Shown: positions 14,090-30,366 of the stretch, in pieces | Layout of the letters: each line of letters opens with the position of its first letter | How positions within the stretch are numbered: the stretch's first letter is position 1 | Assembly (NCBI GenBank): GCA_021819825.1 | Contig: JAKAEZ010000003.1 | Coordinates: 62,001 to 126,000, forward strand | Reading direction: 5' to 3' | DNA: 64,000 nt | Origin: Planctomycetota bacterium | GTDB lineage: Bacteria > Planctomycetota > Phycisphaerae > WQYP01 | Notes under the pieces: generated by a model | Told to the model about the DNA's origin: nothing | Databases searched by the model: none | What the model saw: the letters and a program-made list of their open reading frames with translations, nothing else | Translations under genes and position numbers: made by a program

Positions 14090-14334
14090 CTCAATGCGGC
14101 AGCGTTGAGTGGAACGCGGAACACGGTTAAATAACACAATGCAAGTCAACTCGTCGCGATTGGCTTGGCGCATACCCATTTTTGCCGGAATATCTCCTGC
14201 CTCGCTGGCGTCATGCCTGTCGCCCATACCGCCTGAGGCAGGCGGGGACGCCTGCACCACAAAATTTGGCGTTGCCTTACATCACTGGGATTTTCCGAGG
14301 CGTATACCGTGTCGTGCAATGCGCGATTGCGGGC

Positions 14335-14371
14335 AAAAAAATACCGCGGCCTGCTGCCAGACCGCGGTTTA
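14335..14371 (-). terminator. Rho-independent terminator of rnpB
   Basis: On minus strand: ACCGCGG TCTGGCAGCAG CCGCGGT followed by an uninterrupted T-run. Confidence 0.85.
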
Positions 14372-14380
14372 TTTTTCTGA

Positions 14381-14852
14381 AATGGTCTATAAGCCGAATT
14401 CTGTGCCCCTTGTGGGGCGGCGGTCATTGATCTGGGACAGGCGTTACCGTCTGCCTCAAGCAACCTACCCGGAATCTACGCGTATCATTCGTGCTGATTC
14501 TCCGAAGAGAACTTTGCCGGTGATGATGCTACGGCTTCCGCTATCCCTTGACGGGGGCATTTTGCGGCGGACGCCTGCGCGCCGGGCCGGCGCTTCGATT
14601 CCCTATTTGGTCTTGCACCCGGTGGGGTTTGCCATGCCGGCCATGTCACCATGGCCGCGGTGCGCTCTTACCGCACCTTTTCACCCTTACCATTCCGAAA
14701 AATCGGAATTCGGCGGTATATTTTCTGTGGCACTTTCCCGCATTCCCGTCGTTGCCAACGGGAATGGGTGGGGATTACCCACCACCGCGCCCTGCGGTGT
14801 TCGGACTTTCCTCCCGGCTTACGCCGAGCGACCGCCCGACCATTCCATAACC
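14381..14852 (-). ncRNA. rnpB: RNase P RNA component (bacterial class A)
   Basis: Minus strand: GGTCGGGCGGTCGCTCGGCGTAAGCCGGGAGGAAAGTCCGAACACCGCAGGGCGCGGTGGTGGGTAATCCC at 5' end; ...GGTAGGTTGCTTGAGGC... and terminal CACAGAATTCGGCTTATAGACCATTTC. Confidence 0.93.
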
Positions 14853-14981
14853 CCTATTGTAGCAGATTGATCATCTGATTTATATCCCGCCGGAAATGAA
14901 ATGCTATTCGGCTACTCGCTTTAGCACGGCAATCTGACCGCAACCTCGGCACCCCATGCCCCATAAACCGCTACAGGCTTT

Positions 14982-16424
14982 TCATGGCTTACGTGCTTTG
15001 CCGGCATGCTCCGCGCGGTTGCGCCCAAAGCGCAAACTCATGCTGATATGAATGTTTTTCCCATGCCGAAGGATCGTCAGTACCACGTTTTTTGGATTAG
15101 CCATAATATGGCGATGAATGGCGTGAAAATCCAGGATCGACGACCCGTCAATGGCAATAATGATGTCGCCCTTTTTCACTCCCGCTCGGGCAGCCGGCGA
15201 ATTAGGAAAAGTCCCCGTAACCTTCATAGCCGGTTTATGGCCCAAGTCCGCAATGCGCGTGCGCAAAGGATCATTGGCTTTAATCATGGCAAAGCGAATA
15301 CCAAATCGCGGCGGTTGCGGTGAGCCGGTGAGCAGAAAACTTTTCAGCGCCCGGCGGTTGTTATTCAACGGGAAAAATCCGCTTGGTAAATTCAATGCCG
15401 CCAGATGTCCGCGCAAATTAAATACGAAGGCCGGCGACTTTCCCATAAGCCCACTCATTGCCGGTCCGTGGTCCCTGTCGTGGCGGCCGAAGCGCGGAAG
15501 CCTCATCGGCTTTTCACCCAGTGGCATAATCCAATGGGCGGACGCGGATGTTGCGCTGATCGCAAAAAGCAACTCGGCTGGGTGCAATGGACGGCGGATT
15601 AACCTTACGCCGTGCAGCTTGGGGTGCCCCTTGATCGCCAGGACCGTTACCCCCATTGCTTCCTTCACACCAAGAATATAAGCCGAATATTTTTTGCCTC
15701 GGGAATTCCAGATTGTTACGGGGCGTGTGTCGCCGGCCGGCGCAATCACCGCGGGGATAACTATATAACCCCGCTCTCCAACAATTAATCCGCGCACCGT
15801 GTTGCGGCTGTTTGTCGGTAGTGACGCCAGTCGCGCATTAATAAGTTTAATTTCCGGCCAGAATTCCTGCGGCGGCAACGGATGAGTTTCAAAAAGATAA
15901 TGGCGAATCAGAAAAATCTCCGCCGCCGCGTGATGGTTAATATCTCCCAGTCGCTCCTGCTGGCTGTGATTAAGCACGAGTTTTTTATTCCCGGCTGATC
16001 GTAAATCCGGTTTGATGACTATTCGCGGTTCCGGAGGTCCTTCCCGATGAGCGTTCGGATTGGCTCGGAAATCATGCTCTACGACCCAGTTTTTCTCCCA
16101 AAGCAGAAATTTCTTCTGAATCTTTTCTGGAAGCAGGTGCAGGGGGTTGGGATCCATCTCCACTGTGACAAACGAATTTTGCAGCGTGCCGTAAAATGCC
16201 TGAGATTCCCGGCTTAACTGTTCCAGAATCCCCACACCCTGCCTGGCGGAATCCGTAACGCCTGACAGCGCCGGATTATCGGCGGCATTTTGCGCCGCCG
16301 CCGACCCCGCCGAACACGCATAAGTCATTATCCCCGCAACCAGCGCTGCCGCAGCCGACTTCCATTTGCCGGTGGTTCCAGAATGTCGCATTTGTCTAAC
16401 CATTGAATTCCGAATAATTACCAC
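14982..16424 (-). CDS. HtrA/MucD-like PDZ protein with degenerate trypsin-like domain (predicted pseudoprotease), secreted
   Basis: C-terminal PDZ (TGTFPNSPAARAGVKKGDIIIAIDGSSI); trypsin-like domain aligns to the intact HtrA in this window but lacks triad His/Asp; signal sequence. Confidence 0.75.
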   Translation of the reverse strand: MVIIRNSMVRQMRHSGTTGKWKSAAAALVAGIMTYACSAGSAAAQNAADNPALSGVTDSARQGVGILEQLSRESQAFYGTLQNSFVTVEMDPNPLHLLPEKIQKKFLLWEKNWVVEHDFRANPNAHREGPPEPRIVIKPDLRSAGNKKLVLNHSQQERLGDINHHAAAEIFLIRHYLFETHPLPPQEFWPEIKLINARLASLPTNSRNTVRGLIVGERGYIVIPAVIAPAGDTRPVTIWNSRGKKYSAYILGVKEAMGVTVLAIKGHPKLHGVRLIRRPLHPAELLFAISATSASAHWIMPLGEKPMRLPRFGRHDRDHGPAMSGLMGKSPAFVFNLRGHLAALNLPSGFFPLNNNRRALKSFLLTGSPQPPRFGIRFAMIKANDPLRTRIADLGHKPAMKVTGTFPNSPAARAGVKKGDIIIAIDGSSILDFHAIHRHIMANPKNVVLTILRHGKNIHISMSLRFGRNRAEHAGKARKP

Positions 16425-16435
16425 TGCCTGAAATC

Positions 16436-17014
16436 TTAAAACACACCCGTATTCGATGCCGACGCCACCTGCGGTGCCGCGACCGGGTGATTGCTGACGG
16501 CCTGTTCATCAGCGGTGTATGTTTGTGCAAAGGCTTTAGCCTGCTGATAAGTCGCAAACCGTTGGGATACAACCTGGCCGCTGGGCGTACTGATTTGCAC
16601 AGTATAACCAATAATTGAAGACGCTGCGGGAGCTGTTGCGGTTTGTGTGGTCGAAGTCACAGACCCCCGCCCGGCAAAGTAACTGCCCGTGGCGATAAGC
16701 ACACACGCCGCGGCCATGCCCAGTCGTTTCAACCAGACTGTCGTAGCACTTGATTCCAAAATGCGGCCAATAGGGGCATATTGATTTTCCCGGCAATAGG
16801 CCAAGGCACCTTCCGCCATACGCTGCGCTTCCGCGGCGTCCGGGGTATAGGATTCAAGGGCGGCCAGTCGTAAGGTTCTGGCTTGCTTCAGATGTGCCAG
16901 CGCCTGCGCTAATGTCTGCTCGGTTAGCAGGCGCTGCTCCAGTTGGGCTTTTTCCATTTCCGGCAATTCGCCGTCCAGATACAGTTCCAATGTAATGTAA
17001 TCGGTTTCTCGCAT
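16436..17014 (-). CDS. anti-sigma factor-like membrane protein
   Basis: ELYLDGELPEMEKAQLEQRL N-terminus typical of RseA/zf-HC2-type anti-sigma factors; single central TM; directly downstream of ECF sigma gene. Confidence 0.75.
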   Translation of the reverse strand: MRETDYITLELYLDGELPEMEKAQLEQRLLTEQTLAQALAHLKQARTLRLAALESYTPDAAEAQRMAEGALAYCRENQYAPIGRILESSATTVWLKRLGMAAACVLIATGSYFAGRGSVTSTTQTATAPAASSIIGYTVQISTPSGQVVSQRFATYQQAKAFAQTYTADEQAVSNHPVAAPQVASASNTGVF

Positions 17015-17089
17015 AAGGCACCTCTTTGAAACCCGCTGTTCCTTTCGCTGTTTTGGCCTTTGGCCGATATCTATCGGCGTAGGCCGCTG

Positions 17090-17641
17090 TTATTGCTCCA
17101 AGTGCGATCTAAGCGACTTGGCCAATTTCATTCTAGCGCGATGAAGCCAGGTTTTAACCTGGGATTCCGTTGCGCCCAAGGCTTCGGATATTTCCCGATA
17201 GCCCATACCTTGTTGCTCCCGTAACACCAGCGCCGAACGCCAGTCGTCGGGGAGCAACGCAATGTGCTGGCGCACCAGCTCGACGGTTTCCGCGGTCAGG
17301 GGCGCTTCCGCCGGGTCGTTTTCCTTGCCGATGCCGTCGTATAAACCGTCATCGGCATCAAGCGATCTTCCGATTTTGCGACGCCGACAACTGATGACGT
17401 TCCGCGACACCGCCTTTGCCATCAGCGACCATCCGCCATCATCCCAATTATAAGATTCGCAATGGCGGAATAGTTTCAGCAACGCGTCCTGTACCATGTC
17501 TTCAGCCTGCTTGGAATCTCGCATTTGCGAGCCAAGCATCGACCGCGCCAGGGCAATCAGCCGACCCATGTTAGCATGGACAGCCGCTTCAAACTGTCGG
17601 CTTGCCGTTGTCTGAGCTGGCATTCTGCTTCCCGGCATCAA
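17090..17641 (-). CDS. ECF-type RNA polymerase sigma-70 factor
   Basis: DSKQAEDMVQDALLKLFRH (region 2); LPDDWRSALVLREQQGMGYREISEALGATESQVKTWLHRARMKLAKSL (region 4). Confidence 0.93.
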   Translation of the reverse strand: MMPGSRMPAQTTASRQFEAAVHANMGRLIALARSMLGSQMRDSKQAEDMVQDALLKLFRHCESYNWDDGGWSLMAKAVSRNVISCRRRKIGRSLDADDGLYDGIGKENDPAEAPLTAETVELVRQHIALLPDDWRSALVLREQQGMGYREISEALGATESQVKTWLHRARMKLAKSLRSHLEQ

Positions 17642-18062
17642 GAGTTATAACGCAATTAAAACCGCCAAGTTGCAGATTCTTTATAAATCCCATCCGTTAC
17701 CTGTTTCGGATGTATGCAATCTTCTGGCTGCGTATTGGGACTGTTATTATATCGGCCGGCGACAGATTGTCAGCAAAGCAGAGATTTCAGTATTTTATCG
17801 GCCGGCAAAATAATAACAATTATCGGGTGCCGTTTTCGCCGATAAGGTATGTGCCGTTCCGAGTAACGACCGGCGATTACTCGAATAGGCCATTAGGGGC
17901 GAGCGATCGCTTATTGGACGAATTATTTTTCGCTTTTTATTTGCAAAGGAGTTTCAGGCGGTTGTATACTTCATAACAATGGAGTTGGGTAAAGAGGGAG
18001 ATGACCACCCGCCAACTAACCGGGAGTTTACCAGAACGTAATGACCCCACTGTGGAATTTGT

Positions 18063-19415
18063 ATGCCTTCAACAGTTCTTAACTCGCTTTCACCTGCTAC
18101 GGTGCTTATGCCGTACATGCCGGTGTTTTACGTCTCCTTTCTTGTTACCGTGCTTCTTACCCCGGTCATGCGGCAACTGGCGCTCCGCTATGGTGTTGTT
18201 GATGAGCCGGACGGCCACCGCAAAATTCATACCCGGCCCATTGCCTATCTCGGTGGCGTGGCCACTTTTATTGGCTGGATGGCCGGCGTATTGGTATCGG
18301 TGTTTATTACCCCCCTCAATAGTGATCCCAATCTTGTCGCCAACGTGCAGGTCCCCCCGGGGATCATTCTCGGAGCCGGCACGGTTGTCCTCTGCGGTTT
18401 AATTGATGATGTTTACAGTATTACGCCCCGGTTAAAGCTCTTTGGCCAATTTCTTGGGGCGGTGCTGCTGTTTTTCCTTAGTGTTGATCGATCCGGCTTT
18501 TTCGGTATTCGTATTGATTTAGCCAATATGCTGGTTTTCCCGTTGGAACGCCGCGGCTGGATTCCCGCAATTCAGTTAACGCATCCGCAGGCGTACATGC
18601 TGTTTGCCAGCATGTTAAGCGCGGTCTTGGCTGTTCTGATTATTATGTCAGCCAGCAATGCCATGAATCTGCTCGATGGCCTGGATGGGTTATGCTCCGG
18701 GGTTACCAGCATCATGGCTGTGGGTTATCTGGCGTTGGCTTTGTATTTGGCGTGCAACGGCGTACCGTCCGCCGGTGTGGCGTCCATGAATCCTACCCGC
18801 ATTACGCTTAGCCTGGCGTTGCTGGGGGCGGTGCTGGGTTTCCTGCCCTATAATTTCAACCCGGCAAGTATTTTTATGGGTGATACCGGCAGCATGTTCC
18901 TGGGCTACGTCTGCGGTGCCATGATTATCATGTTCGGAAATGATGGCATTTTCCGCTGGTTCCTCGGATCACTGGTCATCTTCGGCTTACCCATTCTGGA
19001 TACTTTTCTCGCCATCGTTCGTAGAAAACTTAACCATCGTCCCGTATTTTCGCCCGACTCCGGCCATTTCCATCACTTCCTCCTGAAGCGTGGTTTGTCT
19101 GTTAAACAGGCGGCCTTAACCAGCTATGGCCTGACCGCCATGTTTGTGAGCTTCGGCCTGGTAATTGTCCTTATTCCCACAAGTCTGGCGTTGGGAATTT
19201 ACATGGTTTTGTTTGTCTGGCTGGTGGTGATCGCCTTCAAAATGGGTATGGTGTACCAGCAAGGCGGAAAAACCGCAGCCGCAACAACGACCATTCCAAG
19301 AATCCCGCCCACCGCTGAATCCCCATTGGCTCCCCCTGAAGCTCATCCGGCAACCCCCACCCACGAAGCCCCCAACATCCTGCCCGTAGCCGATCACGGC
19401 CTATTCTCAAAATAA
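18063..19415 (+). CDS. MraY/WecA-family undecaprenyl-phosphate glycosyl-1-phosphate transferase
   Basis: GVVDEPDGHRKIHTRPIAYLGG; NAMNLLDGLDGLCSGVT; FNPASIFMGDTGSMFLG; DSGHFHHFLLKRG. Confidence 0.92.
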   Translation: MPSTVLNSLSPATVLMPYMPVFYVSFLVTVLLTPVMRQLALRYGVVDEPDGHRKIHTRPIAYLGGVATFIGWMAGVLVSVFITPLNSDPNLVANVQVPPGIILGAGTVVLCGLIDDVYSITPRLKLFGQFLGAVLLFFLSVDRSGFFGIRIDLANMLVFPLERRGWIPAIQLTHPQAYMLFASMLSAVLAVLIIMSASNAMNLLDGLDGLCSGVTSIMAVGYLALALYLACNGVPSAGVASMNPTRITLSLALLGAVLGFLPYNFNPASIFMGDTGSMFLGYVCGAMIIMFGNDGIFRWFLGSLVIFGLPILDTFLAIVRRKLNHRPVFSPDSGHFHHFLLKRGLSVKQAALTSYGLTAMFVSFGLVIVLIPTSLALGIYMVLFVWLVVIAFKMGMVYQQGGKTAAATTTIPRIPPTAESPLAPPEAHPATPTHEAPNILPVADHGLFSK

Positions 19416-28597: not shown

Positions 28598-28788
28598 TGC
28601 GCCGCGCTGATCCCTCTTGGCGCATCATTTCCCGCCCCCGTAAAAATATTTTGCCTGCCCTGTAGGGGTTTATCCCCCTGCGGCAACGTATATGGTGAAC
28701 GGGCAATCACCGGGAACGGAATAATAAACCGACCCGATAAGAAAGCCCCGCGTTGAGAAGTGTTTGGAAATTTACGGAGTTTGCATTT

Positions 28789-30366
28789 ATGAAGTACGGA
28801 TCACGAAAACCCTCGCAACTGGTAACCTTGGCCGCGGCGCTGGCGATGGCGTCATCCTTTGGCCTTGTGGCGATGGGAATTTTTGGTTCATCCCATGCCG
28901 TTCACGCTGATGCCTCTTCCGGCGTGCCGGCTATTAACCCCAAGGTAACCGCGTTTGCCAATCAACTTTCCGACGCTTTTGAAGCTGTCTACAACGCTGA
29001 TCATAAGGCGGTGGTTAATATTCAGGTCGTCAAGGAAATTCCGCAATCCCAGAACATCAATCCCGGCGGCCCGATGCAGTTGCCGCCGGGATTTCGCAAA
29101 ATGCTGCCGCCCGGAGCTTTTCCGCTGGTTCCTTCCAACCCCGGCCCGGAGAAAATTTTTGGCACCGGCAGCGGAGTCATTATTTCATCCAATGGATATA
29201 TTGTCACCAACAACCACGTTGTCAGCGACGCCACAAAAATTACCGTCACGCTGGCGGATCATCGCCGGTTTAAGGGAAAAGTCATCGGTACAGACCCCAA
29301 GTCTGATTTGGCGTTAGTGAAGATTGCCGCCAATAATCTCCCGTTTCTCACCTTTGGCAATTCGTCTCATGTGCGCGTAGGCCAGTGGGTTATAGCCATT
29401 GGCTCCCCCTTCGGCTTTACCCAAACCACAACCCAGGGCATTATTTCCGCCAAGGGACGCACCAATGTAAATGTGATTGCGGAAAATGACCCCAAGCTCG
29501 CCGGTTTAACCTATTCTGATTATCTCCAGACCGATGCCGCCATTAACCCCGGTAATTCCGGCGGCCCCTTGCTGAACCTCAAAGGGCAGGTAGTCGGTAT
29601 TAATTCCGCCATCGCCACGAACACCGGTTCGTTTAACGGCATCGGCTTTTCCATTCCTTCCAATGAAGTCAAATATGTTATTCATGCCCTGAAAAAATAC
29701 GGTAAAGTCGTGCGGGGATATCTGGGTGTAACCATTGCGGATGTGCGGCACAGTGTCGTTCAGAAAACCGCGAGAAGCTTTGGCTATGACCATCTCCATG
29801 GCGTACTCGTCGAGCAGGTATGGCCGGATTCTCCTGGTGCTAAGGGCGGTTTGAAGGCCGGAGATATCATCACCGCCATTGATGGAGCCAAAGTCCGCAC
29901 GATGAATCAATTGCGCGATACGATAGCCGATACGCGTCCGGGTAAGGATGTCACGCTGGGTATTTTCCGGCGGGGGAAAATGATGAATTTGACGTTTCCC
30001 GTCGGCACGCAACCCGCCAGCATCAGCCAATTGGCGTTGGCTGGTGCCACCGGTGAACGGCCTGGCGTGGTGCAATCCAAGAGTTTGGGCGTTACGGTGG
30101 CCAGTGTCAGCTCGGAAATAGCCAAGCAATATCACCTTTCCAAACCCGAAGGCGTAATGGTCAGCAAAGTGGACCCCAACGGCGTGGCCGCCGGCGCTGG
30201 TGTAAATCCAGGCGATATCATCCTGCGGGTGCAGGGACATAAAATTACATCGGTGGATGAATTTAAAGCGGTGTTGAAAAAAGTGAGTCTGTCATCCGGG
30301 ATACGCATGTATGTGCGGGGTGCTGACGGCTCGGAGCGCTTTGTGTTTGTGCAGCAGAGCAATTAA
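28789..30366 (+). CDS. HtrA/DegP-family serine protease with two PDZ domains
   Basis: Intact triad motifs TNNHVV, KSDLALVKI, NPGNSGGPL; two PDZ-like repeats. Confidence 0.95.
   Translation: MKYGSRKPSQLVTLAAALAMASSFGLVAMGIFGSSHAVHADASSGVPAINPKVTAFANQLSDAFEAVYNADHKAVVNIQVVKEIPQSQNINPGGPMQLPPGFRKMLPPGAFPLVPSNPGPEKIFGTGSGVIISSNGYIVTNNHVVSDATKITVTLADHRRFKGKVIGTDPKSDLALVKIAANNLPFLTFGNSSHVRVGQWVIAIGSPFGFTQTTTQGIISAKGRTNVNVIAENDPKLAGLTYSDYLQTDAAINPGNSGGPLLNLKGQVVGINSAIATNTGSFNGIGFSIPSNEVKYVIHALKKYGKVVRGYLGVTIADVRHSVVQKTARSFGYDHLHGVLVEQVWPDSPGAKGGLKAGDIITAIDGAKVRTMNQLRDTIADTRPGKDVTLGIFRRGKMMNLTFPVGTQPASISQLALAGATGERPGVVQSKSLGVTVASVSSEIAKQYHLSKPEGVMVSKVDPNGVAAGAGVNPGDIILRVQGHKITSVDEFKAVLKKVSLSSGIRMYVRGADGSERFVFVQQSN

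Follow-up and report, generated by a model that had tools for sequence, protein, structure and literature searches.

A conserved HtrA-like pseudoprotease encoded with an ECF sigma factor and its anti-sigma factor in Phycisphaerae: a probable PDZ-tail partnership

Introduction

What does an HtrA-like protein without its catalytic residues do in an operon with an ECF sigma factor and an anti-sigma factor? The question is raised by three adjoining genes in a 64,000-nucleotide stretch of DNA (hereafter the window) from the metagenome-assembled genome of a planctomycetal bacterium of the class Phycisphaerae. In the known PDZ-controlled envelope stress switches, the PDZ domain belongs to an active HtrA protease and reads misfolded outer-membrane proteins. 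A sequence-only reading of the window had described the three genes as a minimal algU-mucA-mucD-like module whose third product is no longer proteolytic. We examined this locus, its counterparts in the window's own family (f1, 11 genera) and those in other families of the class.

Results

Operon layout, sigma factor and promoter

The three open reading frames lie on the minus strand in the order sigma factor (17641-17090), anti-sigma factor (17014-16436) and PDZ protein (16424-14982), separated by gaps of 75 and 11 nt; order, coordinates and gaps agree exactly with the sequence-only reading. The features of the locus are as follows.

17649..17674, minus strand: predicted ECF-type promoter TGCAAC-N16-CGTT (motif conserved upstream of the sigma gene)
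17090..17641, minus strand: ECF sigma factor, 183 aa from TTG (TIGR02937 and Pfam matches; adjoins the anti-sigma gene in f1 and in a second family, f6)
16436..17014, minus strand: single-pass anti-sigma factor, 192 aa (NF052375, homologue alignment, structure model)
16673..16747, minus strand: predicted transmembrane helix, anti-sigma residues 90-114 (structure model and sequence)
16496..16606, minus strand: small periplasmic beta-beta-alpha element, anti-sigma residues 137-173 (tentative, model pLDDT about 50-60; conserved columns)
16439..16447, minus strand: Gly-Val-Phe, the last three anti-sigma codons, proposed C-terminal PDZ ligand (conservation in PDZ-linked homologues)
14982..16424, minus strand: likely secreted HtrA-like pseudoprotease of 480 aa with a single PDZ domain (Pfam, structure model, profiles; signal-peptide-like N-terminus by inspection)
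15369..15806, minus strand: dead trypsin-like domain, residues about 207-352 (homologue alignment, structure model, profile comparison)
15027..15317, minus strand: PDZ domain, residues about 370-466 (Pfam; carboxylate-binding loop R-F-G-I at 15297-15308)

The first gene product is an ECF sigma factor, with Sigma70 regions 2 and 4 both present above family thresholds (TIGR02937 sigma70-ECF, E 3.7e-22, 78.7 bits against a cut-off of 42.9; Pfam Sigma70_r4_2, E 3e-13). The true starts of two genes may lie a few codons away from those assigned (TTG for the sigma factor, GTG for the PDZ protein), since the end of the predicted sigma promoter is only about 8 nt upstream of the TTG; an ATG at 17638 or 17623 may be the true sigma start. 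The promoter pattern GCAAC-spacer-CGT stands upstream of the sigma gene in 17 of the 18 f1 intergenic regions examined, and 0.19 chance matches to the pattern are expected in the window. Several f6 members have a related motif, AACTT-spacer-GCGTG. An ECF-type promoter kept in this position in one family, with a related motif in the other, fits autoregulation, and the sigma promoter is probably autoregulatory. We claim no regulon for the sigma factor: in eight genomes, matches to the promoter pattern were not clearly above those of a reversed-pattern control.

The intergenic region that holds the promoter is shared with a divergent gene for a WecA/MraY-like glycosyltransferase (18063-19415, plus strand), which is found in this arrangement in most f1 genomes whose contigs extend that far. 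Directly downstream of the operon and on the same strand lies RNase P RNA (RF00010, 290.7 bits, full model; 14374-14847, minus strand); the open reading frame that overlaps it (14109-14870, plus strand) is probably spurious.

Distribution of the operon

In f1, the order sigma factor, anti-sigma factor, pseudoprotease recurs in every genome with a contig that covers the region. When 298 genomes of the class were searched with profiles, the same operon came to light in f6, a second Phycisphaerae family, where the anti-sigma factor was found in 18 of 26 genomes and the pseudoprotease gene adjoins it in 15 of those 18. A phylum-wide sample of 392 genomes, searched at E <= 1e-22, returned only the window itself and one match of 507 aa from another family. 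The genomes compared are mostly MAGs, and some homologues (L051 and L149) are truncated by contig ends. In one genome (G116), the pseudoprotease gene is split into two overlapping open reading frames (L108, 4346-5430), through either assembly error or decay; the anti-sigma factor of this genome still ends in Phe despite the split.

An HtrA fold with lost catalysis

PDZ was the only domain of the 480-aa protein to exceed Pfam thresholds. Trypsin_2, which matches the intact HtrA of the window (28753-30366) with an E-value of 4e-37, gave no match. Profile-profile comparison with seven Phycisphaerae HtrAs nevertheless covered the protease domain and the first PDZ domain (99.7% probability, E 6e-27). 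It paired GYIVIPAVIA with GYIVTNNHVV, VKEAMGVTVLAIK with TDPKSDLALVKIA and GKSPAFVFNLRG with GNSGGPLLNLKG, and so reproduced the pairings that had been drawn by eye against the window HtrA. The structure model has a mean pLDDT of 71, with the protease-like strands and the PDZ domain mostly at 80-90, and its best structural matches in the PDB were DegP, DegS, AlgW and MucD (E down to 2e-14). Global agreement with the PDB matches was low (TM-scores of 0.23-0.27, normalised by query length, and an rmsd of about 10 A). Such values fit a different arrangement of the two domains, and the comparison thus supports the local fold, not the overall arrangement.

The protein has the trypsin-like domain followed by PDZ that is expected of an HtrA (S1C) member and lacks the family's His-Asp-Ser triad and GNSGG loop. 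Alignment to HtrAs bore out the earlier observation that the triad His and Asp are absent from the window protein and that the Gly-Gly is lost. Across the family, the catalytic His is replaced and GNSGG is absent in all 40 homologues, while Asp occupies its column in only three of the 40, all of them without the His. The sequence-only reading had also regarded the Ser position as kept. This is true of the window protein and its close relatives, but the Ser is missing from a homologue of the same genus (L055) and from nearly all others, so that the statement does not extend to the family. A catalytic triad displaced to elsewhere in the domain is unlikely, because no His, Asp or Ser is invariant or near-invariant in the protease-like region of a 27-sequence alignment. 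With the catalytic residues lost in 40 of 40 homologues, the sequences support the view of the third protein as a non-proteolytic HtrA relative. In a maximum-likelihood tree, a long branch with full support separates the pseudoproteases from the active HtrAs; the root is arbitrary, and a single origin is compatible with the tree, not proven by it.

The PDZ domain has fared differently from the catalytic site. Its carboxylate-binding loop is intact by sequence: position 374 is hydrophobic and position 375 is Gly in 40 of 40 homologues, and position 376 is Ile, Val or Leu in 39 of 40. This is the hydrophobic-Gly-hydrophobic loop with which DegS and AlgW accommodate a C-terminal Phe. An Arg of the same domain, R388 (15261-15263), is present in 39 of 40 pseudoproteases; the window HtrA has Gln there.

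Could the third protein be simply an HtrA in decay, or one with weak residual activity, whose place in the operon is accidental? Its HtrA homology and the Ser at the old catalytic position of the window protein would agree with that. Decay, however, would not preserve the reading frame, the fold and the PDZ loop, all of which are kept across two families while the His and GNSGG are lost in every member, and we regard this explanation as highly improbable. Both the gene order and the loss of the triad hold in the 40 comparable homologues of the two families, as the sequence-only reading had proposed to check. For this reason, the sequence comparison indicates that the pseudoprotease is old and maintained.

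Architecture of the anti-sigma factor

By predicted topology, the second gene product has the general layout of a membrane-bound anti-sigma factor, that is, an N-terminal helical domain, one transmembrane helix and a periplasmic C-terminus, and its gene adjoins that of the sigma factor. It matched NF052375 with an E-value of 6e-5, below the cut-off of that family. In the AlphaFold2 model, the helical cytosolic domain (residues 1-76) is confident, and the tail (residues 171-192), modelled with very low confidence, is predicted to be disordered.

Assignment to known families was negative. The protein has no RseA/MucA match in Pfam, where the only hit was a weak one to zf-HC2 (E 0.04), and an alignment of 25 homologues has, in the cytosolic domain, no invariant His or Cys of the kind that the ZAS motif HxxxCxxC would require. 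The three-gene operon contains no rseB/mucB-like gene, and the MucB/RseB Pfam domain was not found. MucD, moreover, is an active protease. On these grounds, the description of the locus as an algU-mucA-mucD-like module does not stand as a statement of membership.

A conserved hydrophobic C-terminus linked to the PDZ gene

Anti-sigma factors encoded next to a PDZ gene have a conserved last residue: 40 of the 42 terminate in Phe and the remaining two in Leu. That of the window has VASASNTGVF as its last ten residues. The f1 proteins end in Phe without exception (27/27) and have Gly at position -2 just as regularly (27/27), with the surrounding positions variable; in f6, the last residue is Phe in 13 of 15 and Leu in 2, with position -2 mostly Asp. 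A translational signal, such as ribosome binding or gene overlap, can be dismissed as the cause of this conservation, because both Phe codons (TTT and TTC) are used and the interval between the anti-sigma stop and the PDZ gene ranges from overlap or a few nucleotides up to more than 100 nt. C-terminal xxF peptides such as YxF and WVF are recognised by the PDZ domains of DegS and AlgW (PMC8545111). Position -2 of these ligands is aromatic, unlike the Gly of f1 and the frequent Asp of f6, a difference that counts against the proposed binding.

The tail and the PDZ gene are also lost together. In two genomes of one f6 genus (L147 and L148), orthologues of the sigma and anti-sigma factors occur without an adjoining PDZ gene, and the search of the class found no pseudoprotease orthologue elsewhere in these genomes; both anti-sigma factors keep the periplasmic domain and end before the tail. 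A weaker orthologue without a PDZ gene (L150) lacks the tail too. The joint loss of tail and PDZ gene represents one lineage.

Comparison with unlinked anti-sigma factors points the same way. Among 55 others of the class that have a complete end and no PDZ gene downstream, the last residue is Phe in two and Tyr in three, and Leu, Ile, Val and Met do not occur there. Left out of this count are two further proteins that extend past the end of their contigs, and L149, whose PDZ gene is cut by a contig end. The control set, assembled through similarity to the anti-sigma family of the window, is a non-random one. The background frequency among 731 long open reading frames is 4.7% for terminal Phe and 13% for terminal Phe, Leu, Ile or Met.

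A second, distinct type of operon surfaced among the controls for this test. In families f8, f16 and f20 (L229-L244), a sigma and an anti-sigma gene are followed by a gene for a PDZ-only protein. In all 16 anti-sigma factors of this type the last residue is Leu, Ile, Phe or Met, for the most part preceded by a Tyr-containing motif, as in AxYxGDL. Taken over both operon types, hydrophobic ends number 58 of 58 in linked and 2 of 55 in unlinked anti-sigma factors (Fisher p about 1e-30, computed with 57 controls); this p-value is inflated by shared ancestry, as the homologues do not count as independent events.

A terminal aromatic residue need not imply a PDZ partner, since another anti-sigma subfamily has such ends without a PDZ neighbour (L155, L157-L159). 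The members of this subfamily (L155, L157, L158, L159 and L166) end in LPY, LPF or RLY. In three of them (L155, L157 and L166), the protein encoded by the next gene begins around SALINEALDKxV and has no PDZ domain.

These patterns bear on which PDZ domain the terminal Phe might serve. On one hand, the reader of the Phe might be the PDZ domain of a catalytically competent enzyme (HtrA, S2P or a C-terminal processing protease), while the pseudoprotease would serve some other purpose, for instance to bind a ligand or a protein of the envelope. These genomes do encode active proteases with PDZ domains, and Prc and CtpA act on the FoxR anti-sigma factor in Pseudomonas (PMC11637429). On the other hand, the tail is missing where the pseudoprotease gene is missing, even though other proteases remain, and a hydrophobic end tracks the PDZ gene in two operon types and is rare without one. 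An active protease as the reader of the tail therefore seems doubtful to us. The conserved C-terminal Phe much strengthens the candidate role of the third protein as the PDZ partner of the anti-sigma factor.

Discussion

We consider it probable, judging from the sequences, that the pseudoprotease and the anti-sigma factor form a non-catalytic PDZ-tail partnership. The sequences themselves show the operon, the loss of the triad, the conserved terminal Phe, the intact PDZ loop, the absence of the tail in the lineage where the PDZ gene is absent and the conserved ECF-type promoter. Such a partnership might work as follows. The ECF sigma factor would be held by the single-pass anti-sigma factor, which has a short periplasmic portion with a flexible, Phe-terminated tail. 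The secreted dead HtrA-like protein would bind this Phe through its PDZ domain, and by holding the tail would gate the access of real proteases to the anti-sigma factor. Displacement of the tail, either by a competing C-terminus (for example, that of a misfolded envelope protein) or by a ligand of the dead protease domain, would expose the anti-sigma factor to cutting by general proteases; the freed sigma factor would then re-activate its own operon. Candidate proteases are at hand, as the genome has genes for S2P/RseP-type proteases and for an intact HtrA, and S2P-family genes occur in 28 of the 28 genomes searched. We infer that the PDZ domain of the pseudoprotease holds the anti-sigma tail in the periplasm and, more weakly, that the releasing signal is a competitor or a ligand.

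The direction of the effect is a separate matter. That PDZ binding protects the anti-sigma factor from proteolysis, as RseB and MucB (PMC8103513) or the FoxA signalling domain (PMC11637429) do, is a tentative proposal. The pseudoprotease might instead be an adaptor or activator that binds the tail and presents the anti-sigma factor to a working protease (S2P, or the window HtrA at 28753-30366), so that binding would release the sigma factor. Triad loss and terminal Phe fit such delivery nearly as well as they fit protection, and there is a precedent in MamO, a dead HtrA that stimulates proteolysis by the active protease MamE (PMC4794232). Where PDZ gene and tail have been lost, however, the sigma/anti-sigma pair is retained, so that delivery is not essential there, an observation that does not decide between the two models. 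We consider delivery unlikely, and keep protection as the working assumption.

How would such a system relate to known ones? It shares with DegS/AlgW and RseA/MucA an ECF sigma factor, a single-pass anti-sigma factor with a periplasmic C-terminus and an HtrA-fold protein with one PDZ domain; the DegS and AlgW PDZ domains read C-terminal Phe peptides (PMC8545111), and the pseudoprotease has kept the loop for such ends. The HtrA here, however, is dead and seems to be secreted, not anchored in the membrane. The Phe is carried by the anti-sigma factor itself instead of by outer-membrane proteins or MucE, and this anti-sigma factor has no RseA/MucA match. With RseB/MucB, the system would share control over anti-sigma cleavage by a non-catalytic periplasmic partner from the same operon, but the fold of the partner is different and the proposed contact is between a PDZ domain and a C-terminus, not through an RseB-type lipid-binding domain. 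By analogy, the system would thus work as a hybrid of DegS/AlgW, in which a PDZ domain reads a C-terminal Phe, and RseB/MucB, in which the partner is non-catalytic. It belongs to neither, because the catalytic residues are lost, the anti-sigma factor does not match the RseA family and its partner does not resemble RseB.

Other resemblances are more partial. MucD/DegP in algU-mucA-mucD is likewise an HtrA-fold protein encoded downstream of a sigma and an anti-sigma gene, yet MucD is active and has two PDZ domains, whereas the proteins described here have lost the triad in all members and have one. MamO and other HtrA pseudoproteases have also lost catalysis and kept the HtrA-fold protein for another role (PMC4794232), although MamO binds metal in magnetosomes and has no sigma/anti-sigma link. 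In the FoxA-FoxR pair, a periplasmic partner shields the anti-sigma factor from proteolysis when the signal is absent (PMC11637429), but that partner is the signalling domain of a TonB-dependent receptor and there is no PDZ-ligand contact. Given the MamO precedent, a dead HtrA alone is not new; the coupling of its PDZ domain to an anti-sigma C-terminus appears to be. A literature search combining anti-sigma, pseudoprotease and PDZ found nothing, although the gene order may have been mentioned earlier.

The PDZ-only operons hint at something wider. It is possible, though we put it forward with reserve, that Phycisphaerae have a general, undescribed class of anti-sigma factors whose conserved hydrophobic C-terminus serves as ligand for the PDZ domain of a non-proteolytic protein from the same operon. 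What adjoins the PDZ domain would be exchangeable, a dead HtrA domain in f1 and f6 and an unrelated C-terminal region in f8, f16 and f20, and the envelope would be sensed through occupancy of the PDZ domain by the tail, not by a dedicated DegS-type protease.

If the proposed partnership is true, the ligand logic of DegS and AlgW would be rewired, with the anti-sigma factor itself as the PDZ ligand, and the usual cutting switch would be replaced, or preceded, by one based on binding. ECF control in Planctomycetota would gain a mechanism that is concrete and testable, and the case would show how a pseudoprotease can persist as a signalling part.
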